Assembly (NCBI GenBank): GCA_000974665.1
Contig: BBSY01000002.1
Span: 124,001 to 188,000 of the forward strand
Direction: 5' to 3'
Source: an alpha proteobacterium U9-1i
Lineage (GTDB): Bacteria > Pseudomonadota > Alphaproteobacteria > Caulobacterales > Aquidulcibacteraceae
Length of the DNA: 64,000 bases
The position numbers and the translations under genes were made by a program. Shown here one piece after another: positions 253 through 19,872 of this stretch. The notes beneath the pieces are model-generated. The model did no database searches, had not been told where the DNA came from, and was given only the letters and a program-made list of their open reading frames with translations. Position 1 is the first letter of the stretch, and every line of letters begins with the position of its first letter.

Positions 253-280
253 TTGAATGCAACCGTTGGATGCCTATAAT
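253..280 (+). promoter_or_regulatory. Sigma-70-like promoter for the WD40-TIR gene
   Basis: TTGAAT at 253-258 and TATAAT at 275-280 are separated by 16 bp, which is close to the sigma-70 consensus. A start site near 287 would give a leader of about 38 nt before the ATG at 325. This argues against a TTG start at 280, which overlaps the -10 box. Confidence 0.6.
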
Positions 281-324
281 TGAAATCCCGTTTGATCGGG
301 CCCGCGGCCGTCAGGAGTAGTGCC

Positions 325-3300
325 ATGGCTTCGCCGCGCAGCGTGGCACCTCCGCCCGGAATGCGGCTTGTTCACTCGTTCGGGACCGGCGGATCGATCA
401 TTCATCGAATGGAGTGGTCGCCATGCGGACGCTTCCTTGCCGCGCCCGCGCGCGACGGGCTCATAAGAATCTGGTCGCTCGAGCACCGCCACGTCGTAGA
501 CGAAGTGCGATGTTCAGGTGGAAGCTGGGTCAACGCGGTCGCGTGGTCCCCGAATGCTTCGGCGATGGTCGCCGGTCTCGAAGACGGAACCATTCAGGTA
601 TGGACACGCCATCCGTGGCGCCTTCGCGGATCGGCTCGCAAACACAGCGCCCGCATTGAGTGCCTGCACTGGTCACCAGACGGCAAGCTCATTGCCTCCG
701 CCTCCGGCGATGGGACAGTACGCGTCTGGGATTCTGAGAATCTTCGCAGTCAGCGCGTGTTGGATGATCACCGGGCCTGGGTCAATGCAGTGCGCTGGTC
801 GCCCAGTGGAGACGTTCTTGCAACCGGCGCAGAAGACAACACCATAAGACTTTGGAACGCTGATGGCTCCACTCAAATCGCCACGCTCGCCGGTCACTCC
901 GACTGGATCGTAGACCTCGATTGGGCGCCGGATGGGAAAACCCTTGCAACGGTCGGCGACACCAGCGTGCGCATCTGGGATGTCGCCCTAGGTCAGTTGC
1001 GGTTTGTGCTCCAGGGGCACGCCGACAGCGTCCGATCGGCGTCGTTTTCCCATGACATGTCGATGATCGCTTCTAAGTCTCACGACAACACTGTCATCAT
1101 CTGGGACACGAAGTCATGGCAGCCGCTTTTCCATCTTCCGGAAGGAACGACACGACGTCGCTACGAACCCGAATGCATCATTCGCTTCAACCCCAACCGG
1201 CCACTGCTTGCCACGCTTGGCGAGAACGACACGGCATGCCGCGTCTGGGATGTGGACGCATCAGCGGCCATACCAGTCGAGAGCGAAGCGCCCTTTACGC
1301 ACTACACAAACGCGAAGATCGTGCTGGCCGGCGAACCGGCCGCCGGCAAGACCTGCCTTGCTCACGCGATTGCCGGCCATCCGTTCGTTCCTCAGGCGTC
1401 AACGCACGGCATGCGCGTTTTGCAGCTTCCCCAGGAGCGTCCAGCCACCGTTGGCAACTATCGCCTCGCGCGAGAGCTCTACGTCTGGGACCTCGCGGGG
1501 CAATTTGACTATCACATTGTCCATCAGGTCTTTCTCGAGAACGCTGCAGTTGGACTCATCGTCTTCGACGCGTCCAACCCCCGGCATCCGTTTGAAACCG
1601 CAGAGTACTGGGCAAACGCCTTCAGACGCTCCGCATCGCAGTTCTGCACAGTTCTCCTGGTCGCTGCAAAAATCGACACTGGCCCGATCACCGTATCGCA
1701 AACAAAGATCGGCGCTTTCCTCGCGCAACGCGACATCGTCGCATTCATCGCCACCAGCGCGGCGACGGGAGCGGGTATTGAGCAATTGCGCATGGCGATC
1801 GACGGCGCCGTGCCGTGGGACAGTTTGCCGGTCACGAGCTCTCCCCGGCTATGGGCGGCAATACGGGAAATCGTCATTGAGTTTGCCGAGTCGAGGAGAA
1901 TTCTGATCACGCGCCAGGAACTATTCGACGTTGCGGTTTCGCGGTTGGGTCCGAGCGAAGACGCGCCATCGCAGTTCGATTCTGTACTACGTCAGGTGCA
2001 GGACCAGGGCTTGGTCCATCGCCTGTCCTTTGGCGGATACATCCTCCTGAGGCCTGAGCTTCTCAATGACGCCGCCTCCGCAATCGTGCTCGCCGCGCGG
2101 GAACATCCAGATGGGCTCGGTTGTGTATCCGAAATCGATGTTCTGTCCGGAGCCGTGCTGCGCCAACGCCTCGGGGAGGAGGTTGACGATCCGCATATCC
2201 AGTTTCTGTCGAGGGCGACGTTGCAATTGCTTGTGGAGCGGGATCTCGCGATCCGCGAGAGCGGCCAGCTCGTCTTCCCTTCGAAGGTAATGCGTGAAAA
2301 TCACGACATCACTGAACCGCTTAGATTAGCTGTGCAATACGAGTTTCCGGCGCCCTCCGAGAAGGTCTATGCCGCGCTAGTCGTGAGGCTCTACTACAGT
2401 GGCGCGTTCACTCTCAGATTCTGCTGGACTTCGGGAGCAAGCTTTGCGGATGCGCTCGGAGCGACTTGTCAGATCGAGAGAACAGCATCCAACGCCGGTC
2501 GAGATCGGCTGGAAATCTCATTCGGCGACCGCACGAGCGATGCCACCAAGGTACTGTTTGTCAAGCTTGTTCACGAACACATCCACAAGCAGGTTCCGAA
2601 GGAAGATGTCGAACGCAGCAGCATTTTCACCTGTGCGAGCTGTGGGGAATCCGTCGACAATCCTCGCGCCATCAATGCTCGCCGAAAAAGGGGAGCGACC
2701 CAAATTCCATGCGCATTTTGCGACGCCGCGATCGACCTTGTCGATGTTCTCCACGAGCATTTCGCAGAGCCTGCCAGCATTGCGGCAGCAAGAAATATTG
2801 AGTCCAACATCGAACGCGCTCGCAGTCTGAGCATCAGCAACACAATCCGGGAGGCCAAAGAAGCGATCGGAGAGCACGACGTTTTCCTGGCCTACAACAG
2901 CTCGGACCGGCAGGAGGTCGCCGCGATTGCCGCGCAGCTTCGTGCTCGCGGGCTGAATCCGTGGTTTGACAGAGAACGCATCGCCCCTGGCCGCGCATTT
3001 CAAACCGCACTCGAGGAGGCCATTCGCCTGTCGAAGGCGGCCGCCATATTCATCGGCGCAAAAGGTCCCGCGAAGTGGCAGCAGATGGAGATTCGAGCGT
3101 TTGTCAGTCAACGCGTCGAGCGTGATCTTCCGGTTATCCCTGTCCTGCTTCCCGGCGTCGCGGAGCCGCCTCAGGAACTCCTGTTCCTCCGGGAATTTAC
3201 CTGCGTGAAATTTGCCGATGGCGTTGAGGACGAGAGCGTCATCGACGAACTGGAATGGGGAATTACAGGACAGAGACCGCAGCGCGGCCACTTGAGCTAA
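325..3300 (+). CDS. WD40 / Ras-like (Roc) GTPase / zinc-ribbon / TIR multidomain protein
   Basis: This 991-residue protein starts at an ATG preceded by AGGAG at 313-317. About seven WD40 repeats fill residues 1-320, with units ending in variants such as VRVWD, IRLWN and VIIWD. A Ras/Roc-like GTPase follows, with P-loop GEPAAGKT at 336-343, a G3 DLAGQ motif, a weak G4 AKID and a G5-like TSA. The middle third looks helical or winged-helix and could be COR-like. CxxC pairs at 770-773 and 796-799 form a probable zinc ribbon. From about residue 851 a TIR domain begins (HDVFLAYNSSD), and Glu922 in the KWQQME context matches the usual NADase glutamate position. The likely scheme is sensor, GTPase switch and TIR effector, as in NLR-like conflict proteins. 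The domains are clear, but a defence role is inference. Confidence 0.85.
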   Translation: MASPRSVAPPPGMRLVHSFGTGGSIIHRMEWSPCGRFLAAPARDGLIRIWSLEHRHVVDEVRCSGGSWVNAVAWSPNASAMVAGLEDGTIQVWTRHPWRLRGSARKHSARIECLHWSPDGKLIASASGDGTVRVWDSENLRSQRVLDDHRAWVNAVRWSPSGDVLATGAEDNTIRLWNADGSTQIATLAGHSDWIVDLDWAPDGKTLATVGDTSVRIWDVALGQLRFVLQGHADSVRSASFSHDMSMIASKSHDNTVIIWDTKSWQPLFHLPEGTTRRRYEPECIIRFNPNRPLLATLGENDTACRVWDVDASAAIPVESEAPFTHYTNAKIVLAGEPAAGKTCLAHAIAGHPFVPQASTHGMRVLQLPQERPATVGNYRLARELYVWDLAGQFDYHIVHQVFLENAAVGLIVFDASNPRHPFETAEYWANAFRRSASQFCTVLLVAAKIDTGPITVSQTKIGAFLAQRDIVAFIATSAATGAGIEQLRMAIDGAVPWDSLPVTSSPRLWAAIREIVIEFAESRRILITRQELFDVAVSRLGPSEDAPSQFDSVLRQVQDQGLVHRLSFGGYILLRPELLNDAASAIVLAAREHPDGLGCVSEIDVLSGAVLRQRLGEEVDDPHIQFLSRATLQLLVERDLAIRESGQLVFPSKVMRENHDITEPLRLAVQYEFPAPSEKVYAALVVRLYYSGAFTLRFCWTSGASFADALGATCQIERTASNAGRDRLEISFGDRTSDATKVLFVKLVHEHIHKQVPKEDVERSSIFTCASCGESVDNPRAINARRKRGATQIPCAFCDAAIDLVDVLHEHFAEPASIAAARNIESNIERARSLSISNTIREAKEAIGEHDVFLAYNSSDRQEVAAIAAQLRARGLNPWFDRERIAPGRAFQTALEEAIRLSKAAAIFIGAKGPAKWQQMEIRAFVSQRVERDLPVIPVLLPGVAEPPQELLFLREFTCVKFADGVEDESVIDELEWGITGQRPQRGHLS

Positions 3301-3371
3301 AACGTCACGGGCGAATGAGGGCGGCAATCGCCCCCTATCCCGCAGCAGATTCATCCCAAGAACGGACGCCC

Positions 3372-3403
3372 GCGTGGACTATTCCGAGAGCGGACGTCCA
3401 CGC
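3372..3403. repeat. Inverted repeat downstream of the WD40-TIR gene
   Basis: GCGTGGAC (3372-3379) and GTCCACGC (3396-3403) form an 8-bp stem with a 16-nt loop, 70 bp after the stop codon. No T-run follows, so it is not a clear intrinsic terminator. The surrounding 180 bp also carry AGCGGACG-like words seen in other gaps of this window. Confidence 0.4.
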
Positions 3404-3479
3404 AGGAAAATACAGCGCCGTTAGCACCTGGCCGGTCGAATCGGCGGAGACTTAGCAATCTCGCAATTGGACCCAGTCT

Positions 3480-3854
3480 ATGTCTGATACGATCATTGCA
3501 GCACTCATCGGCGCGGGTGCCGCCATGCTGGCCGCGGTCGTGGGCCCGTCATTGGCTGAAATGCTGCGCGAGGCTTTGGCGCGTATGCGCAACGCTCCGC
3601 CCGAACGCGATGACTCACTGGTTGAGAAGATTGTCGCCGCCGTTGCGGCAGGCAAGCTAACTGGCGATCTCACCGCCAAGAAAGTCGCGGCAGAGTTCGA
3701 CGGATACAGCCCTGCTCACACTCAAACTGTCCTCGCAAATTTTTGCGAAGAGACGGGCTACTGGGTGAAACGTGGACAGCGAGCGCGATTTGTACGGGTT
3801 GCGCGAGGTCGGTATCGCGTGAAGCAGACGCCATCTTTGAAACGCGCTGCATAA
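3480..3854 (+). CDS. Small protein with an N-terminal membrane helix
   Basis: This 124-residue protein starts with a hydrophobic segment (about residues 5-27, rich in Ala, Ile and Val), followed by a charged linker. The C-terminal half resembles a small winged-helix or HTH unit (residues 60-115, basic near the end). I do not recognise the family. It follows the WD40-TIR gene in the same orientation after 180 bp and is convergent with the DUF4062 gene. No strong Shine-Dalgarno sequence precedes the ATG. It might be a partner of the large protein, but nothing in the sequence proves this. Confidence 0.5.
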   Translation: MSDTIIAALIGAGAAMLAAVVGPSLAEMLREALARMRNAPPERDDSLVEKIVAAVAAGKLTGDLTAKKVAAEFDGYSPAHTQTVLANFCEETGYWVKRGQRARFVRVARGRYRVKQTPSLKRAA

Positions 3855-3938
3855 ACCTAGGCCAAGGGCGCAATCTATCCCAAAGGCGGACATCGACTTC
3901 GGAACGCTGCAAAACGGACAGCAACCGCTCGGAGCATC

Positions 3939-3957
3939 CGCCGGCCGTTAGCCGGCG
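3939..3957. terminator. GC-rich hairpin between convergent genes
   Basis: CGCCGGC (3939-3945) and GCCGGCG (3951-3957) enclose the loop CGTTA. It lies between the convergent 3480 and DUF4062 genes, where a terminator is expected, but it lacks a T-run. The same stem is the last hairpin of the leader element at 15540-15556, including the following GA(C/A)GGAG. Confidence 0.35.
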
Positions 3958-3968
3958 ACGGAGTTGGA

Positions 3969-6851
3969 CTACTCGATCAACTCCGCCATGAGTTTCGTCC
4001 AGAATGGGCCCGCATGCAGCCGCACCCAATCGCCCCAATGCTCAGTCATCGGAGACAGCGCCGCCTGAATTCGAAAATAGCTGGCCGGGCTGAGAGCTGC
4101 GTCCGGGGCGACCCCGGCACCCATGAAGCCCGTGGATTCGCGCCCGCGTTCCACGATCTTGCGCCAAGGATCATCCGGCGCGCATTGCCGCTCGATCCTG
4201 GCGAGGATCAGGTGCGACAATTGTTCGAATGTCTGCGTCGCGACGACTTCGCGCAGACGCGTACCCAGATTAGCATTCGTGGCGGCGTCAACTAGGTGGT
4301 CCGCAGCGAAGCGTAGGAACGACAGCTCGCGACCGAGAGGATGCTTGAGCAAGAGGTCCGCATCATCGGCATCAAGCACTTTACCACTCAGGGCCAGATA
4401 ATGGCTGAGGAAACGCGCACTGTCGCACGTTGGCTCTGCAGCGCTTTCGCCAACGCTCGTCGCCGAAAAACGGCCAGGGAGCGCATCTTCGAGTAAGGCG
4501 AGCAGCGGCAGCACTTCGTCGGCCAATCGATCGGTCTCCGCCAAGACCAGAAAAACTTCACGTCCGGCTCGCGAAGACCAATCTTTGAGCGCTTCTAGGA
4601 CTTCGCGCGTGAATGCGATGGATCCGATACTAGTGTGACCACCGCCTACTTCACGCGTCGTTCTCTGCTTGAATTCAAGCAGCCGGCGATTAAGTGCGCG
4701 CAGAGGCGCGTCCGCCCCCTCCAACGCGAAGAAGTGCTCAAACACAAGGTGCTCGCGCCGGCGCCGCGCGAGCCCAACAGAGCCCGCTGCAGCACACGCT
4801 TCCCAAGACGAGGCAAAGGCGAGTGCTCCGGCTCCCACGTCAGTGGCGTCGTGGGGCAGCATCGAGGCGGCGTGAAAGGCAAACTGCCGGTGCCGCCGTG
4901 CTGAAGACAGTCCCGTATCGGCTGATGGCACGTGCGGATAATGCCTTTCGATCAGCGCCCATAATTGATCCTGAGCGACAGCGGGAAAGTTCTCGTCCAT
5001 TAGCTCTATCGCGTAACCGCGTGCGGTCAGCGCGGCGAGTAGAGGTTTGTATCGGCGATCGACATCTGGCGCCCGCTGCTTTGAGAACGGTTTGGACTTG
5101 CTGCGTGCAAACACCAGCGCCGAGGAGTTCACTGCATTGGGCTTCAGCATAGAGTACGCGATCTCCAGCTCGGTTATGCTCATGCCCGCCCGCTGCTGCA
5201 GCCACGCATCCCGTGGCGCTAGGTGCGAGAGCGCGGCCTTTGACGCGAGCGCGCCGTGTCGTTTACCAAGCAGGGCGACAAAGAACGGGTGCGAAGACGC
5301 GATCTCCCGTAGGCACGAGGCGACTTCTTGCGAGGCCTCCACGTCCGAGCGTGGAACGCCCCAGCGCAAGTCTACCAAAGACACCGAAACTCCGCGATCA
5401 GCGGCTCGGCGCTGCAACTCGGGAAGAACGTGCCGGGCGAGTGCTTCGCGCTCGGCCTCAAAGTCCTTAAACGTGGACGAGATGAAAACCTTAACTGCGC
5501 GTCCGGAGAAAACGGTGCCAGGATCAACTGGCTCAAGCCCGACATATTTGATGAAGGCACCCTCGCCCCGGTAGAGCGGGCGTACGAACTTACCTGCGAA
5601 CTTATCCTCAGCGTTGGCGATCAGCACCGGCACTTTGAAGAGACCGCCGCCTGAAATCAGCGTCTCTTCCGCCGCAGCCATGAGCCGGTTTTGGTCATAG
5701 ATCGGCTCGGCGACCGGATAGCGACCTGGCCCGACGATCACACGGTGGACGGTGCCATCCTTGCTCGCGACGATGTGCGGATCGGAGTTCTTCTCGGTGG
5801 TCCAGGACTCGATCGCGTAGCCATCCTCCTCCAGCTTCGACCGTGCGACTTGGGTGGCGAAGTCGAGCAACTCCCAATCCGAAATCTCGATCGTCTGGCG
5901 CAGGTCAAACCTCGTCTCGTCAATCACGCGATCACTGCGCGCATCGACTAGCGCCATCGACTCCAAGACTGGATCGTCGACCCGCAAATCGCCGGGCCCC
6001 AAGTCAAGTCGCACGTGTCCGTCTTGCGGTTCGTTGCGCGATCGGCTGCGCATATGAATCGCTGCGAAGAGCTTGCAGCGGGCGATAATGGGTACGCCAC
6101 GCATCGATGCCGCCAGATCGATAAGACTGGCGCGGCGTTTTGGATCGAAGGTGGTGAGCGGCGTATCGGTCCAAGCGGCGTCGACGTAGATTAGACCGAG
6201 CTGGTTCTTGAATCGCATCGCCAGATGGTGGCTGGGATCCGGACTACGTGAGTGCGCAAGCCCTTGCCAGCCCTTCTTGATCAAGCTGTTCCAGACCTCG
6301 GCTTTCGCGAAGTGCAACAGGCGCGGCGTCGCGAGCATGAGACGGGCGTGAGGATCGTCTTCCTCGAAGCGTTGACCCATGTATTGTTTGCGCCCGTCGG
6401 CATCGACGAAATAGCGCAGACCCGTCTCTTCATCGATCTCAAGGTCTTCGCCCGATCCCAAGCGAAACGTGAGCTTGTTGCCGGGGCGCCAATTCGCAGC
6501 CGTCGCCATCGGTCGTGGCGGCGCGTTGCGCATGCTTGCGGTCATATTTCCCTGCTCGTCTGCAGCGACATCCAGCCAGTCGCAAGGCACGGTAGGCCCA
6601 TGAATCTGATCGACGACCGCCAGATCAATTGCCTCACCGTTGCGGATGTGACGCAAGCCGTCCCGCTCCAGCCCACGCACGAACACTTCGACATCGGTCG
6701 GCGTCATGAAACCGACTGCGGCGAGAAGTCCGTCGGAGCGAAAGGTTGAATTGGGCGCTGCTGATTCAAAGGCGCGGAGCCCGCCAGGCAAGGCCTTCTC
6801 GATCGCGTTGGCTTTCACCACGACGGTGATCGCTTCAACCAGAACACTCAT
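3969..6851 (-). CDS. Large DUF4062-containing protein, candidate conflict-system component
   Basis: A 960-residue protein, with the start set at the ATG at 6851 (N-terminus MSVLVEAITV). The frame stays open upstream to 7013, but that extension is rich in Arg and Ser and looks spurious. The first ~450 residues resemble nothing I know. From about residue 453 comes a DUF4062 signature (KVFISSTFKDFEAERE, then DLRWGV and FFVALLGKRHG). This is the domain found at the front of many large NLR/STAND and TEP1-like proteins. The last ~390 residues look mostly helical, and no P-loop NTPase motif is visible, so a STAND ATPase seems absent. Its neighbours are TIR and HEPN-type proteins, suggesting a sensor or scaffold in a defence island (inference). 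Confidence 0.75.
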   Translation of the reverse strand: MSVLVEAITVVVKANAIEKALPGGLRAFESAAPNSTFRSDGLLAAVGFMTPTDVEVFVRGLERDGLRHIRNGEAIDLAVVDQIHGPTVPCDWLDVAADEQGNMTASMRNAPPRPMATAANWRPGNKLTFRLGSGEDLEIDEETGLRYFVDADGRKQYMGQRFEEDDPHARLMLATPRLLHFAKAEVWNSLIKKGWQGLAHSRSPDPSHHLAMRFKNQLGLIYVDAAWTDTPLTTFDPKRRASLIDLAASMRGVPIIARCKLFAAIHMRSRSRNEPQDGHVRLDLGPGDLRVDDPVLESMALVDARSDRVIDETRFDLRQTIEISDWELLDFATQVARSKLEEDGYAIESWTTEKNSDPHIVASKDGTVHRVIVGPGRYPVAEPIYDQNRLMAAAEETLISGGGLFKVPVLIANAEDKFAGKFVRPLYRGEGAFIKYVGLEPVDPGTVFSGRAVKVFISSTFKDFEAEREALARHVLPELQRRAADRGVSVSLVDLRWGVPRSDVEASQEVASCLREIASSHPFFVALLGKRHGALASKAALSHLAPRDAWLQQRAGMSITELEIAYSMLKPNAVNSSALVFARSKSKPFSKQRAPDVDRRYKPLLAALTARGYAIELMDENFPAVAQDQLWALIERHYPHVPSADTGLSSARRHRQFAFHAASMLPHDATDVGAGALAFASSWEACAAAGSVGLARRRREHLVFEHFFALEGADAPLRALNRRLLEFKQRTTREVGGGHTSIGSIAFTREVLEALKDWSSRAGREVFLVLAETDRLADEVLPLLALLEDALPGRFSATSVGESAAEPTCDSARFLSHYLALSGKVLDADDADLLLKHPLGRELSFLRFAADHLVDAATNANLGTRLREVVATQTFEQLSHLILARIERQCAPDDPWRKIVERGRESTGFMGAGVAPDAALSPASYFRIQAALSPMTEHWGDWVRLHAGPFWTKLMAELIE

Positions 6852-7130
6852 GCCGTGCCTAAGCCACCTAGAAAGTTGGCGGCATGTTGATCTTCGCCAC
6901 CGCGCCAGGAACTCTAGCTGGCTGAGGCGCATCAGCAAGAGCTCTGCTCGACTGCATGAAGCCCGCTGCGCCGAGGTCATGCGGGAATCTGGCAGCGTCT
7001 GCTCTACCAACAAAAACTACAATCGGCGGTCCCGCACCGGCCCTACGCGCTCGCTTCCATAAAGCGGTCGACGCGCCGACAGACGGCCGCACTCAACGCA
7101 ATGTACTCAGCGCTAGGACACGCGCCGCGA

Positions 7131-7748
7131 TCAGCTCGATGAGACTTCGGGAAGCGCAGCCCTATACGGAAGTTTCTTGCTAATCCCATCCAGCATCGGT
7201 GGCCCGCGAAAGCGAAGATTCGGATCAGGCTCATCGAGGCGCATGCCCCATTTGGGACGACCTCCGACGAGTGCAATCACGCGTGGTACGATCTCTGTGA
7301 CGACAGGTTGACACACATCGTGGCGCAAGCCCAGGCCTGCTATCTCCGATACGATCGCCGCTCGTCGTTGTTGGTTGTCGAAGTCCAGAAAGAGAATTGG
7401 TACTCCGTAGCCTATCGCAGCAATTCTTAGCTCCCACATAACCCAATCTGATCGCGTAATACCTGGTCGGCTCGCAACGATTACGATGTCGGAGGTGAAA
7501 ATTCTGGCGGCGACCTCGGCTTGTACATCGAGGTCGGCGACATCTCCACCACGGGGGCCTGCAATCTGCTGTCTTTCGTTCAGCGAAACGTCGTCGATAC
7601 AGTGTCCCTGACTTCGGAGCTTACCAAGAACCTGCTCATACAAGTCGCGGTCCTGACCCCAGCGGTGGCTCATGAATATGCGAATGTACCGTTCTTCTGA
7701 GCCCGGCTTCCAATACGCAAATTGCGGCGTCAACGCGTTCTTTGGCAT
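7131..7748 (-). CDS. TIR-like (DUF1863/ThsB-type) domain protein
   Basis: This 205-residue protein is read from the ATG at 7748, which has GGGAGG five bases upstream. The core begins YIRIFMSHRWGQDRDLYEQ, followed by helix and strand alternation with DIVIVASRPG and SDWVMWELRIA, then VPILFLDF. This is the flavodoxin-like fold of TIR-like domains of the DUF1863/ThsB group. The SDWVMWE segment could supply the conserved Glu after a Trp. ThsB proteins make NAD-derived signals in Thoeris, but no ThsA-like SIR2 or SLOG effector is encoded nearby. It lies 279 bp upstream of the DUF4062 gene on the same strand and 140 bp downstream of the HEPN-like gene. Confidence 0.7.
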   Translation of the reverse strand: MPKNALTPQFAYWKPGSEERYIRIFMSHRWGQDRDLYEQVLGKLRSQGHCIDDVSLNERQQIAGPRGGDVADLDVQAEVAARIFTSDIVIVASRPGITRSDWVMWELRIAAIGYGVPILFLDFDNQQRRAAIVSEIAGLGLRHDVCQPVVTEIVPRVIALVGGRPKWGMRLDEPDPNLRFRGPPMLDGISKKLPYRAALPEVSSS

Positions 7749-7888
7749 CACCACCTCCCACCTTGTTTTCTCAAGGGGTCGCGCCGCGATCGCATCTGGT
7801 CAAGCGAAAAGCAGGCTTCCTGTCGAAGTGGCCGTCGGTGGGTCCCCAGCAGACTTGCGTACGCCCTCCCGCCAGCAGATCGCGGGCG

Positions 7889-8653
7889 CTAGTCGTGCCG
7901 CACCACGCCCTTCACATAGCCGTGGCCCTGGCTGCGTGCGGCGCGCGCGGCATCGAGGGCGTCGGGCGAAGTCAGCACCATCGGTAGGTTGAGAGGATGC
8001 TGGTGTATTTCGGAGTTGATAAGTTCGGCGTCGGCAGCGGCCAGAGTGTTCAACTCGTCGGTGAGTTCGTCGATCTGCCGCCTGCTGAGCTGGCGGAAAA
8101 GTTCACAGGCAAACTCGATCTGCGAACGCGCACGCGCCGCCAACTTCTTGTCCACTGTCTTTCGCCGCGTCGCAACGCCGACCCGCACGTCATTGCCAAC
8201 GCTGGCGTCCAGAACGACCCGCTCAACCTTCCACTCGCCGGTGTAACTTCCGCCCGAACCGAAGTGTGCGATCGCCTTGTCGCGCAAGTCGCAAAGTTCT
8301 TGATGGACGATCTTCTGCTCTGGGTTGAACTTGTCGCGCGGGTCATAACCCCGGCGCTCGTCCGATGTTGTTTTCGTGGCGCGTGCGTAGAGCACGACCG
8401 CATTGCTCAGCAGCGATGCCTCTGTGATGCTCTTGATAAGATTGTCGTCCTGCGGAGGCGTAGCGAGCAGCGCGTCGAGCGCGTCCAGGCATTCGGTCGC
8501 CATCACTAAGTCTGCGTGAAGCGAAGAGAGGTCCTGCGCACGTTGGATTTTGCCGGCGAGCGGCCTAAGGCGCCGCTCCGCAAACAGGCGCTCCGAAAGC
8601 GCCGTGAGATCGTAGACAGAATCGGGCATGCCGAATTCTACCACACGCGCCAC
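7889..8653 (-). CDS. HEPN-like protein with an R-x5-H motif
   Basis: This 254-residue, predominantly helical protein has no signal peptide or membrane segment. Residues 124-130 read RDKAIAH, which fits the R-x4-6-H motif of HEPN ribonucleases, including the polar residue after Arg, in the context HQELCDLRDKAIAHFG. HEPN proteins act in toxin-antitoxin, abortive-infection and other conflict systems. Translation may begin at GTG 8653 or at the ATG at 8629 (MPDSVYDL). It is the first of three same-strand genes (HEPN-like, TIR-like, DUF4062) spread over 4.7 kb. The assignment rests on one motif plus helicity, so the fold is tentative. Confidence 0.55.
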   Translation of the reverse strand: MARVVEFGMPDSVYDLTALSERLFAERRLRPLAGKIQRAQDLSSLHADLVMATECLDALDALLATPPQDDNLIKSITEASLLSNAVVLYARATKTTSDERRGYDPRDKFNPEQKIVHQELCDLRDKAIAHFGSGGSYTGEWKVERVVLDASVGNDVRVGVATRRKTVDKKLAARARSQIEFACELFRQLSRRQIDELTDELNTLAAADAELINSEIHQHPLNLPMVLTSPDALDAARAARSQGHGYVKGVVRHD

Positions 8654-9335: not shown

Positions 9336-10460
9336 ATGGACAAAAAAAGCGCCCTGGCGACTGCGGCTCGGATCCGCGAGCATCTCGGCAAAGGCGCCGA
9401 CGGCCAGCCCGGCCTTCCCGCCCTCCCTCGCCGTTCAAACGAATCCGGAAACGCGCGGGCTTATTTTCATACGATTGAGTGCGCTTACGACCGCTACGAA
9501 CCGAGCTACAGGCTCGGCGTTGGCATCGCGCGGAGCCTGATCGTCGGCGGCGAGCAGACTTGGAAATTGTCGTTACGCATTGCCTGCGCCGCTGATCTCG
9601 ACCTGCAGCCGCTTTGCGCCGCGATCGTCGAACTCGCTAGACCGAACGATCCCAATTTCAGCGAAGACGACGTCGACTACAAATGGGTCGGCGTTCCAAA
9701 GCTTCACGCCATTCGCGCGGCGGATCGACCGGGCGCGCACACACGACCGGGCGTCACGATCCGTCACGGTCATCCGCGAACCGGATCGGTAGGCACGGTG
9801 TCATGCTTGGTCGTCACACAGGCCGGCCAGACCCACATTCTTACAGCCGGACACGCCGCCACGAGCTTCTGGAACGCCGGCTCAGGCGATGAACTCTGGC
9901 GAAAGGCTAGCAAGTCCGGCGGGCAGATCGCGGTCGCGGCGTTTGGAACTGGCGTGCCGCCGCCAACCGGCCCAGAGCAGATCCTGCTCAACAACGAACC
10001 CATGACGCTGGACTACGCGCTGGCTCCGGTGACGGCCGCCGCGCGATGCGCAAACACTTACCCCGACAGAAGAATGCCCGCCCTTGGCGCGCGAATTGAT
10101 CCCCTCGATCACACCCCCGTTGGGAAAGTGGTGAAGTTCGGTTACGGTACAGGTGCCCGGGAGGGGACGGCGGGGGATTCAGACTTTATCAGCCTTCCAC
10201 TCCTAGATTCGTCGCGGAAGTCCGTCGTCGAATATCACGGGCTGAGGGAAATTGTGCCTGATAACAAGGTCTTCTCCGCTCCCGGCGATAGCGGTGCGCT
10301 GGCCGTCCAAAAAGGCAGCGGTCGCATCTTGGGCATGCTGATTGGCGGCGGCAGCGCCGATCCTCTCGATTATGACGGCAAACTCCCCGATCGGGTTCCT
10401 TCGTTTGCGCTGCCCCTAGGCCCGGTCTTGGATAAGCACCAATTGACGGTGCTCATATGA
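9336..10460 (+). CDS. Trypsin-like (S1-fold) serine protease
   Basis: A 374-residue protein with a chymotrypsin-like triad: His in HILTAGHAAT, Asp in MTLDYALAPV and Ser in FSAPGDSGALAV. No signal peptide is visible, so it is probably cytoplasmic, unlike most trypsin-like proteases. The first ~120 residues form a separate N-terminal domain that I do not recognise. Its stop codon overlaps the start of the next small gene (ATGA), and a CHAT protease gene follows, so the three are probably co-expressed. Stand-alone cytoplasmic trypsin-like proteases beside caspase-like proteins are a hallmark of proteolytic conflict systems (family knowledge). The specific role here is inferred. Confidence 0.8.
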   Translation: MDKKSALATAARIREHLGKGADGQPGLPALPRRSNESGNARAYFHTIECAYDRYEPSYRLGVGIARSLIVGGEQTWKLSLRIACAADLDLQPLCAAIVELARPNDPNFSEDDVDYKWVGVPKLHAIRAADRPGAHTRPGVTIRHGHPRTGSVGTVSCLVVTQAGQTHILTAGHAATSFWNAGSGDELWRKASKSGGQIAVAAFGTGVPPPTGPEQILLNNEPMTLDYALAPVTAAARCANTYPDRRMPALGARIDPLDHTPVGKVVKFGYGTGAREGTAGDSDFISLPLLDSSRKSVVEYHGLREIVPDNKVFSAPGDSGALAVQKGSGRILGMLIGGGSADPLDYDGKLPDRVPSFALPLGPVLDKHQLTVLI

Positions 10461-10693
10461 CCACCAAGATCGAGGCCCTGCGCGCAAAAAGCGCCGTACA
10501 GCAGACCGCCGAGAGAATGCTCGGCATGCGCCTGGGAGCTGGCTTGACCCGCGCGGGCGATGACGATTGGGCGGTGGTGCTGTTTCTGCCGCGCCCTCTT
10601 CCGGAAGCGACCGAGCGCAAGATCGTCGCCGAATTTCCAGAGATGCAGATCAAATTCCGCCGCGACCCGCGCGCGGTGCTTCACGGCAGCTAA
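10457..10693 (+). CDS. Small protein between protease and CHAT genes
   Basis: A 78-residue protein starting within the ATGA overlap with the protease gene, which indicates translational coupling. The sequence suggests a helix followed by an alpha/beta unit (LGAGLTRAGDDDWAVVLFLP, then a basic C-terminus). A loose resemblance to the small domain that precedes some bacterial trypsin-like proteases is possible, but I cannot confirm it. By position it could be an inhibitor, chaperone or adaptor for either protease. No cysteines or membrane segment are present. Confidence 0.65.
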   Translation: MTTKIEALRAKSAVQQTAERMLGMRLGAGLTRAGDDDWAVVLFLPRPLPEATERKIVAEFPEMQIKFRRDPRAVLHGS

Positions 10694-10758
10694 TTGCTCG
10701 TCCGTTAAGGGTGCCGCTGCCGCTCAATCTCCGCTAGCATCGGCGTGGGAACGGGCAA

Positions 10759-13128
10759 ATGCGGGCTTACCTACTTTATCACCCAGATGATGGGGCTCAG
10801 GCACGCGAACTTCGCGTAGCGCTGAGAAAAAACGGCGTCGCCGCTCGGCTGCGCAGTTTCGATAAACCGCCGAGTTCGCGCAGCCTGCGCAACGCCTGGC
10901 TCATATACCTATCATCCGCCGCGAGCGAAGCTTGGGAGCAAGACGCACCACCGGACCAGCGCGCGCAGCTCCAGCAATTGCTCACGCCCAGAGAAGACGG
11001 CTCTAGCCGACTCATTCGCGTGGAACTGCGTCCGCCATCGGGCATCTATGCCGGCGCTGCAGCGGCCGCTCACACGCTCTATTGGGATGGTCCCGCTCCA
11101 ACCGCCGCAGACATCCGCGCAGAGATGCGCGAAGCGGTTTCGGCATCGATGCGCGTTCTATCCGATGTGTCGCGGCTGGCTTGGACAACAACCAAATTTC
11201 TGGCAATTCCCGCTGGGATCGGGATGGTCGCGCTCATCCTATTTATGAACATCATGCTCTTATGGCCGAAGCCGGAGGAGAAATCCGATCCGCCTTCGGC
11301 GCGGTTCGAGCACCTGGGCGCGTTCACGAACGCAGCTGGAGAGACGCTTCCAACCGCGCACGTGCGGCAGGGCCAACCTACACAATTTCACTATCGATTC
11401 CGCCCGCTGGGCGAGGAGAGCGCCGAACTGCACGTCGAGGCTAATCGTGAACTCACGGAATACCTCGCCAGGAACGACAGCGTCGGCGTGCAGTTTGCCT
11501 GTTACCCCTGCGATCTCGACCCGGATTCATTGGGCGTGCGCCAAATTCAGAGCGAGGACTTGGCAGAGTCCGAACTCGTTTTCGCGTTTACGCCAATCGC
11601 ACCGCAACGCGACGGGCGGTCGGCGCTCGATATACGCCCTCATATCGCCCTCACCTTTCTTGACGGCGGCGCCTTGCTTGATCGGTGGGTCATTCCTTTG
11701 CGCGTCCTCGGACCCGAGGAAGTCGCGCCAGACACGAGCGCCAGCGCCCAGGTTTCAAGCCGCACCGGCGAGCACTCAATCTATGAAGGCTATGCCGTCC
11801 GTATGCCGTCCAGAGTGATCCGATTCACCTTCACTGCGGCAAGCCGCACGACGCCGATGGCGGTCGAGATGCGCGCGCCGAATTGGGCGAGCCGCTATCT
11901 ACCTGACGATCCGGCGCTGCAAGTGCGCCGAGACAGTGCGGGATTCATCGTGAGCGCGCCATTACGCACGACGCCGGCGCGTTTCTCCGGGCTCGTCCAA
12001 CGCATGATGGGATCGGTGGAAGGCGCGATGCAAAACGCATTCTCGTCTGATTTACAACTCGGCGCCGAGGATACGTCAAGCCCGTGTGCTTTCGGATCGG
12101 ATCCTGCAGAGAATCAGGCCGCCTCAAGCGAGGCATTCCGTAACTGCATTCGCGAACGTGCGCTCAATGTGCGCGATGCGATGCTGCCCGATGCGATGCG
12201 GCAATTTCTCTACAATTTAGCGCGATGCGGCAGCGTTGACGAGGATACGCTGTCGCTTGTGGTGTTTAGCGGCCATCCGCCGGCGCCATTGCAATTGTTG
12301 CCGGTCGACGAAGTGCACCGGGGCCAGCTGGATCATTGCGATGTCGTCGGCGGCGCGGACGAGCGTGCTCAAACGACCGCACCGAGTGACGATTATTGGG
12401 GGCTTCATTTTCCGCTCGTGTCCTTGCCAGTCGTCAACGAGGATTTGTTCGACACCGATGGGCCCCCTAACGTGTCGCCCTTAAGCCCGCAGCTCTTGGC
12501 AGGCATTTACGCAGCGCCGAGTGGGGCAAATGCCGCGCCCGACATCGATACGTTCAACGCCTTCGCTCAATTTGTCTCGGGCCGCGCGCGCGCGACGGTG
12601 GTGCGAGACGGTCGGCAATTTCTCACCGCCATCAGGGATCGCCGGGGCGACATCGATCTCATCGTGACCAACACGCATGGCATTCGTCGCCCGCCCTACA
12701 GCAACGAGCTGATCTTTTCGGACCTCTCGACCTACGCCATCAACCCCGAAGTGGCCCCGCCTCCGGGATCCGTCGTCAACGCCACCGATCTCTATGGCCA
12801 ATTGAACAGTGTCACCGCTGTTGGCCAGATCGGACTGTCACGCCGGCCATCGGTCATATTGCTTGCATGCGATCTTGCGTGCCGCGACGACGACGAGTTC
12901 TGCATCCCGTCGGTCTTTCTGACGTTCGGCGCTGAGAGCATCATCGCCGCTGAGGCCTCGGTGCCAAGCTCGGTCGCGCATGATCTCGGCCGTATGTTGG
13001 TCGAACGCATCGGCCGCGGCGACCCCGCCCCAATCGCGCTGTTGCAGGCGCGGCAAGAATACTTCCGCACTCACCACAGCGTCTTCCCCCTGCTTTGGGG
13101 TATAGTGGGCGCCGAAGGCCTCTATTGA
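10759..13128 (+). CDS. Membrane-anchored TIR-like / CHAT (caspase-like) protease
   Basis: A 789-residue protein with three parts. Residues 1-110 look like a divergent TIR domain (MRAYLLYHPDDGAQARELR, later LIYLSSAASEAW). One membrane segment spans about 147-169 (FLAIPAGIGMVALILF). A long middle region leads to a C-terminal CHAT peptidase domain, with His640 in VTNTHG and Cys704 in ILLACD forming the caspase-type dyad. The end (VAHDLGRMLVERI, then FPLLWGIVG) is also CHAT-like. It lies 65 bp after the small protein and is convergent with the M23 gene, overlapping it by 7 bp. A cell-envelope or suicide protease controlled by the upstream serine protease is a reasonable inference, not shown. Confidence 0.75.
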   Translation: MRAYLLYHPDDGAQARELRVALRKNGVAARLRSFDKPPSSRSLRNAWLIYLSSAASEAWEQDAPPDQRAQLQQLLTPREDGSSRLIRVELRPPSGIYAGAAAAAHTLYWDGPAPTAADIRAEMREAVSASMRVLSDVSRLAWTTTKFLAIPAGIGMVALILFMNIMLLWPKPEEKSDPPSARFEHLGAFTNAAGETLPTAHVRQGQPTQFHYRFRPLGEESAELHVEANRELTEYLARNDSVGVQFACYPCDLDPDSLGVRQIQSEDLAESELVFAFTPIAPQRDGRSALDIRPHIALTFLDGGALLDRWVIPLRVLGPEEVAPDTSASAQVSSRTGEHSIYEGYAVRMPSRVIRFTFTAASRTTPMAVEMRAPNWASRYLPDDPALQVRRDSAGFIVSAPLRTTPARFSGLVQRMMGSVEGAMQNAFSSDLQLGAEDTSSPCAFGSDPAENQAASSEAFRNCIRERALNVRDAMLPDAMRQFLYNLARCGSVDEDTLSLVVFSGHPPAPLQLLPVDEVHRGQLDHCDVVGGADERAQTTAPSDDYWGLHFPLVSLPVVNEDLFDTDGPPNVSPLSPQLLAGIYAAPSGANAAPDIDTFNAFAQFVSGRARATVVRDGRQFLTAIRDRRGDIDLIVTNTHGIRRPPYSNELIFSDLSTYAINPEVAPPPGSVVNATDLYGQLNSVTAVGQIGLSRRPSVILLACDLACRDDDEFCIPSVFLTFGAESIIAAEASVPSSVAHDLGRMLVERIGRGDPAPIALLQARQEYFRTHHSVFPLLWGIVGAEGLY

Positions 13129-16069: not shown

Positions 16070-16506
16070 GCGTCACGCCTCGGTATGCGGAATTCGATGC
16101 CCTAACCTTAGACGAGCTTCGCCAACGCTGGAGAAACGCCTTGGGCGTCGATGTCCCGGCACACAGCTCTCGAGATTTGCTGGCGCGCGCCCTCGCCTAT
16201 CACCTGGAGGCACGACGGGAGGCGATTTCCGTGCGTAGGACCCACGCACGGCTTGGCAAGCTCGCGTCGGCCTTCGAAGCCGACAAGGAGTTTTCGCCAC
16301 CAGATTCTACCTTGCGCCCCGGAGTGATTTTGGTCCGCGACTGGAACGGCAAACGCTTCGCCGTGACAGTGCTCGACAAAGGCTTCCTTTTTGACGGCAA
16401 GCAATTCGGTTCGCTGACCGCGGTCGCCAAGGCCATCACCGGCGTTTCGTGGAGCGGACCACGCTTCTTCAAGCTTACCGATGAACCGAAGGATGCCACC
16501 CTGTGA
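16066..16506 (+). CDS. DUF2924 family protein
   Basis: A 146-residue protein with the DUF2924 pattern: TLDELRQRWRNALG near the start, then LLARALAYHLEARR, then a C-terminal strand-rich part (PGVILVRDWNGK, VTVLDKGFLFDGK, SLTAVAKAITG). The last part resembles RAMA-like modules. The family is regularly linked to large serine recombinases. It starts at ATG 16066 and overlaps the recombinase by GTGA. Confidence 0.85.
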   Translation: MSVTPRYAEFDALTLDELRQRWRNALGVDVPAHSSRDLLARALAYHLEARREAISVRRTHARLGKLASAFEADKEFSPPDSTLRPGVILVRDWNGKRFAVTVLDKGFLFDGKQFGSLTAVAKAITGVSWSGPRFFKLTDEPKDATL

Positions 16507-18089
16507 CCGCCGCGAAGCGATGCGTCGTCTATTCGCGCACGTCTACCGAGGAAGGGCTCGGACAAGAGTTCAACTCACTAGATGCTCAGGCGGAGGCCTG
16601 CGAGGCCTACATCAAGTCGCAGGTTGGTGAAGGCTGGCGGCTCACTCAAACGGCCTACGAAGACGGCGGCTATTCCGGCGGCAGCATGGATCGACCCGCG
16701 TTTCAGCGATTGCTTGCTGATGTCAAAGCCAAGCGCGTGGACATCGTCGTTGTCTACAAAGTCGACCGACTGACACGCTCACTCGCCGACTTTGCAAAGA
16801 TCATGGAAGTGTTGGATGCAGCCAGCGCTTCGTTTGTATCTGTCACGCAATCGTTCAACACAACGACGAGCATGGGACGGCTGACGCTCAACGTGCTGCT
16901 GTCTTTTGCTCAGTTCGAACGCGAAGTGACCGGCGAACGCATTCGCGACAAGCTCGCGGCGTCGAAGGCGAAGGGCATGTGGATGGGCGGCAAGCCGCCG
17001 TTTGGATACGAAGCAGCTGGTCGAACGCTGGCGATCAACGAAGCCGAAGCTGAACGCGTGCGCATGATCTTCAAGCGCTTCGTCCAACTTGGATCTGTTC
17101 TCGAACTCGTCGAAGACCTTCGTCATCGCCGGATCGTTACAAAGAAATGGACCACCAAGAACGGCCTCGAGCTTGGCGGCAATGCGATGACGCGCGGTGG
17201 GCTTTATTGGATGTTGGCCAATCCTATCTATCGCGGAATGATCCGCCACCGCGGGAAGGTTTATCCGGGCCTGCACCCCGCGATCGTTGACGAAGAGACA
17301 TGGAGCGCGGCGGCGGCGTTGCTGTCAAAGTCCGACCCACGCGCGAGTCCTACAACGCCGACGGACCTGCTGCTCGGAAAGGCTTTCGACGACAAGGGTC
17401 ACGCGATGGGCGTGAGCTGGGGCCGCAAGGGCTCAGCTCGGTATCGCTATTACGTGTCGCAACCGGCGCTCAGAGGTCGAAGCGCGGAGGCAGGCAGCCT
17501 GCGTCGGGTCTCTGGCACGGCCCTTGAGGGCGCAACGATCCGAGAAGCGGCGCAATTCATTGATGCGAGTTGGGCGCCAGATGGACCGTTAGCACAACGC
17601 GTTTGCGCGGCGCTGAAGCGCATCGAAGTAGGAGCGCGCCGCCTCGTGCTGCACTTTACTGAGACGGCTATCGATCCGATCGGCATCAGCGCAACGAGCT
17701 ACGAAGTGGAGCACGTGGATGGCCTCGTTCGCGTCATCTGTCCGATTGCGCTCGCCAAACCGAAAAACGCGACTTCTTTGATCGGACGACCGGGAACAGC
17801 GGTGCCGCGGCGGGATCGCGCCCTCATTCGCGCCGTCGCAGTTGCGCGCTCTTGGTCAGAGCGCCTCGACGCGGGCGCGCCCAGATCGATCAAAGCATTG
17901 GCCAGTGCGGAGAGGGCGTGCATTCATTACACGGCAAAGCTCCTTCCGCTTGCCTATTTGGCCCCTGACCTCGTGGATATGATCCTCGACGGCCGTCAGC
18001 CGCCGCGGCTGACGTTGATGGCGCTCATCGCCGAGCCCCTTCCCTTGTCTTGGAACGCGCAGCGCGAGCGCTTTGCTTCGTTCAATTAG
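16503..18089 (+). CDS. Large serine recombinase
   Basis: A 528-residue site-specific recombinase starting at GTG 16503. The resolvase domain (residues 1-150) has the nucleophile serine in VVYSRTSTEEG, plus DRLTRSLADF and LLSFAQFEREVTGERI. The 'recombinase' DNA-binding domain and zinc-ribbon-like region follow (GGKPPFGYE, then GLYWMLANPIYRGMIRHRG). Large serine recombinases integrate and excise phages and islands, or act as family-specific transposases. It is the last of four overlapping genes and looks intact. Whether the cassette is itself a mobile unit cannot be decided without its att sites. Confidence 0.9.
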   Translation: MTAAKRCVVYSRTSTEEGLGQEFNSLDAQAEACEAYIKSQVGEGWRLTQTAYEDGGYSGGSMDRPAFQRLLADVKAKRVDIVVVYKVDRLTRSLADFAKIMEVLDAASASFVSVTQSFNTTTSMGRLTLNVLLSFAQFEREVTGERIRDKLAASKAKGMWMGGKPPFGYEAAGRTLAINEAEAERVRMIFKRFVQLGSVLELVEDLRHRRIVTKKWTTKNGLELGGNAMTRGGLYWMLANPIYRGMIRHRGKVYPGLHPAIVDEETWSAAAALLSKSDPRASPTTPTDLLLGKAFDDKGHAMGVSWGRKGSARYRYYVSQPALRGRSAEAGSLRRVSGTALEGATIREAAQFIDASWAPDGPLAQRVCAALKRIEVGARRLVLHFTETAIDPIGISATSYEVEHVDGLVRVICPIALAKPKNATSLIGRPGTAVPRRDRALIRAVAVARSWSERLDAGAPRSIKALASAERACIHYTAKLLPLAYLAPDLVDMILDGRQPPRLTLMALIAEPLPLSWNAQRERFASFN

Positions 18090-18567: not shown

Positions 18568-18612
18568 TTCGGAAGCGACTTGGAAGCGGGTGCGGGCCGG
18601 CAGCAAGACGAC

Positions 18613-19872
18613 ATGGTTCGCAAGAGCACTTCAGCCAAAAAAGCATTCACCGATCTGCGCGTGCGCGCACTGGTCAAGGGCCAACTTGGCGATCATCTGG
18701 ACGGCGCAACGCCCGGCCTCTTCTTGCGCGTCGGCAAACGTGGCGCGAGCTGGTCATTGCTTTATCGCGTGACCGGCCATGGCGGCGATAGCCCCTCGGG
18801 GCACAAGACCAAGGGGCCGATGCGAAGGCTGCATCTGGGGGATTACCCCAATGTGAGTCTTGCTGCCGCGCGCGTCAAAGCACACTCTCTTATGCAAGTC
18901 GCCGAGGGCGGCGAAGATCCCAAACGGGAAGCAGCAAGAACCACCAGCAGCTCTAGGACGCTGGCCTGGCTCGTCGATCAGTATGTCGAACAATACGCCA
19001 CGAAGGCGTTGGCCTCGGGACAAGTCGGCGGCTGGGTTCTTAAACGGCATTGGACCCCCCACTTCGGAAAGCGGGCCTACGCCTCGATCACCCGCTCAGA
19101 ACTTACCGAGCGGCTTAAGTTGATCGCCGCATCGCCAGACCACGGTCCCGGTGCGGCTCTTGAGGCCCGGCGCTGGATCATGGGTCTCTACAGCTGGGCC
19201 ATCAAAGAAGAACTGATCTCCCACAATCCAGCCGTTGGACTCATTGGCCGCGAAGGGCTTCGACAAAAGCCCGAAGACCTGCGGCCGCGCGAGCGCGTCC
19301 TTGCGATCGATGAAGCGCGTGCGGTCTATCGAGCCACGTTCAAGATGCCCGCGCCTTGGGGCGAACTTGCGCGCGTCCTGCTACTGTCACTCTCGCGGCT
19401 CAGCGAATTTTCGAAGGCGGAGCGAGGTTGGTTCGACCGCGTCGGCCGCAATCTTGAGGTTCCGGGCACAGGCCACAAAAACCGGCACCCCAAAACAATA
19501 CCTCTGACAGATCTGACTTTCGCGCTCCTGGATGAACGGCCTCATGGCGAAGAAGGGCCATATCTCTTCTCGACGACCGAAGGACAAAAGCCAATCTATA
19601 GCTTCGCTGACAATTACGCGAACAGGCTTCGCGCGCTGACAGCCAAGGAGCTGGGCCGAGAGTTGCCACACTTCACGCTGCATGATTTTCGTCGGTCCGG
19701 ATCAACGCATTTGACCGGCTTAGGCGTGAACGAAGAAGTCGTTGAAATGCTGCTCGGCCACAAGATTAAGGGCGTGCGCGGCATCTACATGAAACACAAA
19801 TTCCTCGAAGAACGACGCAACGCCTTGTGTCTCTGGGAGAAAACACTGGGTGCTCCGGGCGTCGCGCCCTAA
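18613..19872 (+). CDS. Tyrosine-type integrase (P4-like)
   Basis: A 419-residue integrase from ATG 18613; the frame is open from TTG 18580. The N-terminal DUF4102-type arm-binding domain (AFTDLRVRALVKG, then GLFLRVGKRGASWSLLYR) leads to a SAM-like core-binding region and a C-terminal catalytic domain. Near the end HDFRRSGSTHLTGLG gives the H-x-x-R box, and MLLGHKIKGVRGIYMKHK gives the second His and the nucleophilic Tyr. The first catalytic Arg lies in LLLSLSRLSEF, where R-x-x-E is typical. It acts on the tRNA-Val att site next door. Confidence 0.9.
   Translation: MVRKSTSAKKAFTDLRVRALVKGQLGDHLDGATPGLFLRVGKRGASWSLLYRVTGHGGDSPSGHKTKGPMRRLHLGDYPNVSLAAARVKAHSLMQVAEGGEDPKREAARTTSSSRTLAWLVDQYVEQYATKALASGQVGGWVLKRHWTPHFGKRAYASITRSELTERLKLIAASPDHGPGAALEARRWIMGLYSWAIKEELISHNPAVGLIGREGLRQKPEDLRPRERVLAIDEARAVYRATFKMPAPWGELARVLLLSLSRLSEFSKAERGWFDRVGRNLEVPGTGHKNRHPKTIPLTDLTFALLDERPHGEEGPYLFSTTEGQKPIYSFADNYANRLRALTAKELGRELPHFTLHDFRRSGSTHLTGLGVNEEVVEMLLGHKIKGVRGIYMKHKFLEERRNALCLWEKTLGAPGVAP

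Follow-up and report, generated by a model that had tools for sequence, protein, structure and literature searches.

A NAL1-like serine protease gene with a small partner gene, next to a CHAT protease gene, in an alphaproteobacterium

Gene layout and the two protease domains

A 64,000-nucleotide stretch of the alphaproteobacterium U9-1i (contig BBSY01000002.1, positions 124,001 to 188,000; hereafter "the window") carries three genes, here called A, B and C, which encode a predicted serine protease, a small protein and a protein with a predicted CHAT protease domain (Table 1). An earlier interpretation based on the letters alone (the sequence-only reading) had described them as a three-gene unit in one apparent operon. 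Three co-directional open reading frames (ORFs) of 374, 78 and 789 residues are indeed present at the stated coordinates, and a codon-usage model trained on 12 other ORFs of the window and then applied to A, B and C gave positive scores for all three. B scored +31.9 bits in its own frame and -37.0 and -29.7 bits in the other two forward frames, and its proposed translational coupling to A through a shared ATGA (10457-10460) proved to be real. The gap between B and C is 65 bp. No promoter- or terminator-like site was found on the plus strand between the three genes in a consensus scan, and the number of such sites in the region was not above that in shuffled sequences.

The His-Asp-Ser triad of A lies in a predicted trypsin fold, as expected of a NAL1-like serine protease, and it was found to be as intact in a 28-row family alignment as had been claimed (Table 1). 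A family member at L065 (5774-6757, minus strand) has Thr at the position of the catalytic Ser. Rice NARROW LEAF 1 (NAL1) was the top match both of the family profile and of the predicted model of A, with an identity of 16-18% over the aligned residues. A alone did not match the NAL1 Pfam models PF25608 and PF25819 up to E 10. Among its relatives, L062 and L107 scored above the Nal1_C cut-off, L133 scored above the NAL1_N cut-off and L125 narrowly below, and L110 and L112 had no noteworthy NAL1 Pfam score. The family profile and the predicted model place A among the NAL1-like proteases. The model of its N-terminal domain comprises a helix (41-52), two strands (60-65 and 79-84) that enclose a pair of short strands, a second helix (90-101) and a final strand (113-117); the elements start at residue 41, and confidence is low over residues 36-57. 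No membrane segment was detected in A.

Judged from sequence profiles, C is a divergent CHAT protein. Its match to PF12770 (E 4.1e-4) reached 20.3 bits, and 23.3 bits in a second scan, below the curated cut-off of 24, and a profile built from 35 CHAT domains of relatives recognized C alone with an E of 1.9e-8. The proposed His640/Cys704 dyad sits in conserved CHAT motifs and is invariant in the aligned rows (Table 1). The single membrane helix of the sequence-only reading was also recovered as one likely segment, which separates the N-terminal region from the remainder of the protein and whose hydrophobicity is barely above the threshold used; a comparable segment lies within the first 93 residues in 15 of 40 relatives' CHAT ORFs. 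The N-terminal region itself had been described as divergent and TIR-like. We found no support for this assignment, as residues 1-134 matched neither a Pfam TIR model up to E 10 nor, by sequence, a solved TIR domain. The other 550 residues outside the CHAT domain gave no profile match.

Table 1. Positions of genes, domains and catalytic codons in the window.
Feature	Position	Strand	Description or evidence
Gene A	9336..10460	+	NAL1-like serine protease, 374 aa
A residues 1-125, predicted N-terminal alpha/beta domain	9336..9710	+	Predicted model and profile alignment
A residues 139-374, trypsin-fold catalytic domain	9750..10457	+	Family profile and fold match of model
H173 codon (triad)	9852..9854	+	Kept in 28/28 rows
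D226 codon (triad)	10011..10013	+	Kept in 28/28 rows
S319 codon (triad)	10290..10292	+	Ser in 27/28 rows, Thr in one
Gene B	10457..10693	+	78-aa small partner, proposed free copy of A-type N-terminal domain
Gene C	10759..13128	+	789-aa protein with C-terminal CHAT protease domain
C residues 1-134, N-terminal region	10759..11160	+	TIR assignment unsupported; Pfam and solved-TIR sequence searches
C residues 145-163, hydrophobic segment, likely membrane helix	11191..11247	+	Kyte-Doolittle scan
C residues 622-780, CHAT match	12622..13098	+	PF12770 and relatives' profile
H640 codon (CHAT dyad)	12676..12678	+	Invariant in 9/9 aligned rows
C704 codon (CHAT dyad)	12868..12870	+	Invariant in 9/9 aligned rows
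DUF4062 protein, 1014 aa	3969-7013	-	
ThsB-like TIR protein, 207 aa	7131-7754	-	
Large serine recombinase	16503-18089	+	Right of the three genes
Tyrosine integrase	18580-19872	+	Right of the three genes, close to the serine recombinase

A-type proteases recur with a small partner gene

Single-sequence searches with A, B and C recovered no trusted relative. As a query, A matched only itself in 385 genomes of the class. Among 398 genomes of the phylum, 24 had matches at E 0.1, namely, A itself and 23 that were judged to be due to chance (19 of the 23 were re-scored; the best had an E of 4.0e-4 and an internal stop); just one of these 23 genomes, G752, reappeared in the profile search described below, at a different place. 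Plasmids yielded nothing at E 0.01 and one row, judged to be chance, at E 10; phages yielded nothing at E 10, and the genome_contigs set yielded nothing. C matched only itself in 101 relatives, and the 398 phylum genomes added two short and weak rows to the self-match at E 0.01; plasmids gave nothing at 0.01 and two rows at E 10, and genome_contigs and viral_contigs gave nothing, so that no full-length homolog of C was found across these five sets. B retrieved three weak rows from plasmids at E 10, and one B-type partner used as a query retrieved nothing at E 0.1.

The family of A was reached via PHROG 20754 ("protease"). The resulting profile search found members in 6 of 150 relatives and 9 of 388 phylum genomes (A included in both counts), in 8 plasmid records, 6 of which were examined, and at 71 viral loci (protease ORF located in 70). 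The A-related family thus spans bacteria, viral contigs and an archaeal plasmid. The A-type proteases of the 71 IMG/VR viral contigs (L132-L202) mostly have a fused N-terminal domain and no separate small partner.

L062, L064, L107 (a Rubrobacter plasmid) and L125 each have a small ORF (71 to 77 codons) directly 3′ of the protease gene. These small partners were initially chosen by eye; each was then left out and searched for with the rest, and they were recovered with E values of 7e-12, 4e-12, 6e-7 and 8e-7, respectively. On two Rhizobium plasmids (L109 and L108), a similar small gene (E 3e-4 and E 0.0075, respectively) is divergent to the adjoining protease gene. In both of these loci, radical SAM and HEXXH peptide-modification genes precede the A-type protease gene at about 2000-5600. 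Of the 20 cellular or plasmid loci, 6 had a detectable small partner, and of the 70 viral-contig loci, none had one at E 0.1 or better; in L063 and L110, the small ORF downstream does not score with the small-family profile. The A-type protease and the small gene therefore form a recurrent pair, in some other bacteria too, and the small family shares homology with the N-terminal domain of the A-type proteases. This recurrence had been missed by the sequence-only reading, as had the NAL1-like character of A and the resemblance of B to a free A-type N-terminal domain.

B agrees with these partners in size and place (an ORF of ~70 to 81 codons adjoining an A-type gene). Its model, built from a four-row alignment that included three partners, is confident for the size of the protein (pLDDT 86, pTM 0.72) and consists of a helix (4-22), two strands (27-34 and 37-44), a helix (50-59) and a strand (64-69). 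When the element order of the predicted models was compared, the alpha-beta-beta-alpha-beta order of the A-type N-terminal domain was found in B, which by its model looks like a free-standing copy of the N-terminal domain of A. Searches of the PDB with the model gave nothing specific. There was no match of B to Trypco1 or Trypco2 Pfam models up to E 10, the presence of both models in the library being unconfirmed. Sequence is the weak side of the assignment of B: its E was 11 in the small-partner profile test, and with the final small-family profile it ranked first among the 959 ORFs of the window, yet with an E of 1.3, and 10 of 5000 shuffles scored equally. Two earlier profiles had ranked it third (E 0.57, 2 of 3000 shuffles) and eighth (E 1.6, 6 of 3000 shuffles). 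The N-terminal domain of A itself was undetected by a sequence profile of nine such domains (E 16). We infer from size, place and predicted fold that B belongs to the small family.

A possible proteolytic switch and its alternatives

Our tentative proposal is that A and B constitute a regulatory protease module which, with the downstream C, acts as a two-step proteolytic switch. B, made as a separate N-terminal domain by translation coupled to that of A, would bind A, either replacing A's own N-terminal domain or opposing it, and thereby set the activity or assembly of A. A trigger would release A from B, and the freed A would cut or free the membrane-anchored C, or the order would be the reverse, with C acting on A; the end result could be cell damage or arrest, perhaps upon infection. 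We infer that B binds A, which of the proteins controls which, whether A and C are linked at all, the trigger and the role in defense. That B acts on A is suggested because the small family accompanies A-type rather than CHAT genes and is similar to the A-type N-terminal domain; that C may be the target or effector is suggested by its adjacency and by the switch roles described in the literature for both folds.

The sequence-only reading had treated the three genes as one proteolytic unit and had called for a search for conserved trios. The CHAT matches numbered 46, one being the window's own; of the remaining 45, the scan included 41, which fall within 40 regions of 6 to 16 kb, and left out two in G094 and two in G851. 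Scanning of 107 protease loci left, after removal of 2 from the window itself and 14 short duplicates, 91 A-type regions of 4 to 13 kb each, some of them cut by contig ends and one with masked stretches. An A-type protease was present in 0 of the 40 CHAT regions, and a CHAT gene in 0 of the 91 other A-type regions, while the A-type and CHAT profiles each recovered their own window protein as a control. As far as searched, the trio is not conserved, an outcome that the sequence-only reading had itself named as a refutation. It is quite conceivable, if somewhat doubtful, that A and B form a module of their own and that C is an unrelated neighbor in a variable region, with no three-gene system. 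These counts, the occurrence of the small partner without CHAT in L062, L064, L107, L125, L108 and L109, and the 65 bp that lie between B and C all agree with such a view. However, C is on the same strand after a short gap that contains no terminator-like site, and our searches gave no full homolog of C that could show its usual neighbors.

For the mode of action of B, we favor control of the activity of A over assembly or folding help. Assembly, in which a homotypic contact between B and the N-terminal domain of A would recruit the protease or make it oligomerize, in the manner suggested for effector-associated domains (EADs), is unlikely. The homology of the small family to the protease N-terminal domain is in line with it, as is the principle, stated in excerpts of two EAD papers, that domains are shared between adjacent genes (PMC7159879, PMC8195603); however, B is one domain only, without a sensor or effector, and sequence cannot separate assembly from inhibition. 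It is a little less probable still that B lies outside the small-partner family and owes its position to coincidence: its sequence score to the family is not significant, but its place, strand and size fit, its rank among the window's ORFs is the highest, and its predicted element order matches. Finally, B as a folding helper for A, akin to a protease pro region given in trans, is very improbable.

The control of A by B, if true, would make a free copy of an enzyme's own domain a simple natural control element, testable with two purified proteins. The boldest form of the proposal, a recurrent and hitherto undescribed prokaryotic switch in which a NAL1-type protease is under trans control by a free copy of its N-terminal domain and is wired here to a membrane-anchored caspase-fold protease, so that a two-protease cascade kills or arrests the cell on infection, appears rather unlikely. 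In the open-licence literature, we found no description of a bacterial NAL1-like protease with a small partner or of a trio of a trypsin-like protease with a TIR/CHAT membrane protein.

The surroundings of the three genes are variable, since nothing corresponding to the region was found upstream of the ribonucleotide reductase gene in four same-genus genomes. A close ribonucleotide reductase gene is present in 4 of 7 such genomes, and the ~17 kb upstream of it matched neither the window left of ~22,860 nor the 18 kb left of the window. The left boundary of the variable region was not found; a type II secretion gene there had only distant matches in the seven same-genus genomes. That this region is a defense island is only suggested. 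PADLOC models matched 2 of 9 scanned proteins, both of which contain TIR domains (the ThsB match was weak), and did not match A, B or C. A WD40-Roc GTPase-TIR protein of 1006 aa (280-3300, plus strand; TIR_2 E 3.6e-20) is encoded near the TIR and DUF4062 proteins. Three adjacent minus-strand genes (3969-8653), for the DUF4062 protein, the ThsB-like TIR protein and a 254-aa protein of no clear family, may form a TIR-based unit of their own. The DNA immediately left of the window encodes a protein kinase-HD domain protein (L203:14279-16603, plus strand).

Comparison with known systems

NAL1 is a protease studied in plant growth, and to our knowledge, it has no separate small partner. A resembles rice NAL1 (PDB 7y77, 8pmi and others; Pfam PF25608, PF25819) in its trypsin-fold catalytic domain, its triad and a predicted N-terminal domain, and it differs in its low identity and in having no NAL1 Pfam score of its own. 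An excerpt of one recent paper calls NAL1 plant-specific (PMC12915138), whereas the NAL1-related family found here extends beyond plants to bacteria, an archaeal plasmid and viral contigs.

B and C are reminiscent of the predicted EACC1-caspase two-gene system, as outlined in part of PMC7159879, in that a small gene is followed by a gene for a membrane-associated member of the caspase superfamily. However, B is modeled as a soluble alpha/beta domain, the likely membrane helix lies in C and not in the small gene product, the predicted peptidase domain of C is C-terminal, and an extra serine protease gene is located 5′. With TPR-CHAT/Csx29 and other CHAT proteases (PF12770), C shares a C-terminal CHAT domain with a His-Cys dyad; unlike in TPR-CHAT/Csx29, neither TPR nor a CRISPR partner was detected.

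Trypsin-like peptidases also occur in bacterial conflict and lysis systems, among them LypC of the Caulobacter LypABC system and the predicted NucA-trypsin systems (sections of PMC13236601 and PMC7159879), and A is similar to them in this respect. Lysis by LypABC is lost in mutants of the LypA and LypC peptidase sites and kept in LypC endonuclease mutants, according to the same portion of PMC13236601. L112, a member of the family with which A was found, is a trypsin-plus-Endonuclease_NS protein with the layout described for LypC. In contrast to LypC, compared by description only, A has no endonuclease domain, and no CARD-NLR partner was recognized beside it; a NucA-type endonuclease domain was absent from A, B, C and the neighboring proteins scanned. 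Canu and the trypsin-nuclease pairs, presented in extracts of PMC12799240 as nucleases activated by caspases and trypsins in defense, likewise use caspase-fold or trypsin-like proteases as defense switches. Unlike in those pairs, two proteases are encoded side by side here, and no MBL-fold nuclease was found among the neighboring proteins scanned. By analogy with what these sources describe (PMC12799240, PMC13236601, PMC7159879), a role in immune proteolysis is plausible, and a link between A and the membrane CHAT protease, if true, would bring a protease-protease step into the known repertoire of these folds in bacterial immunity.
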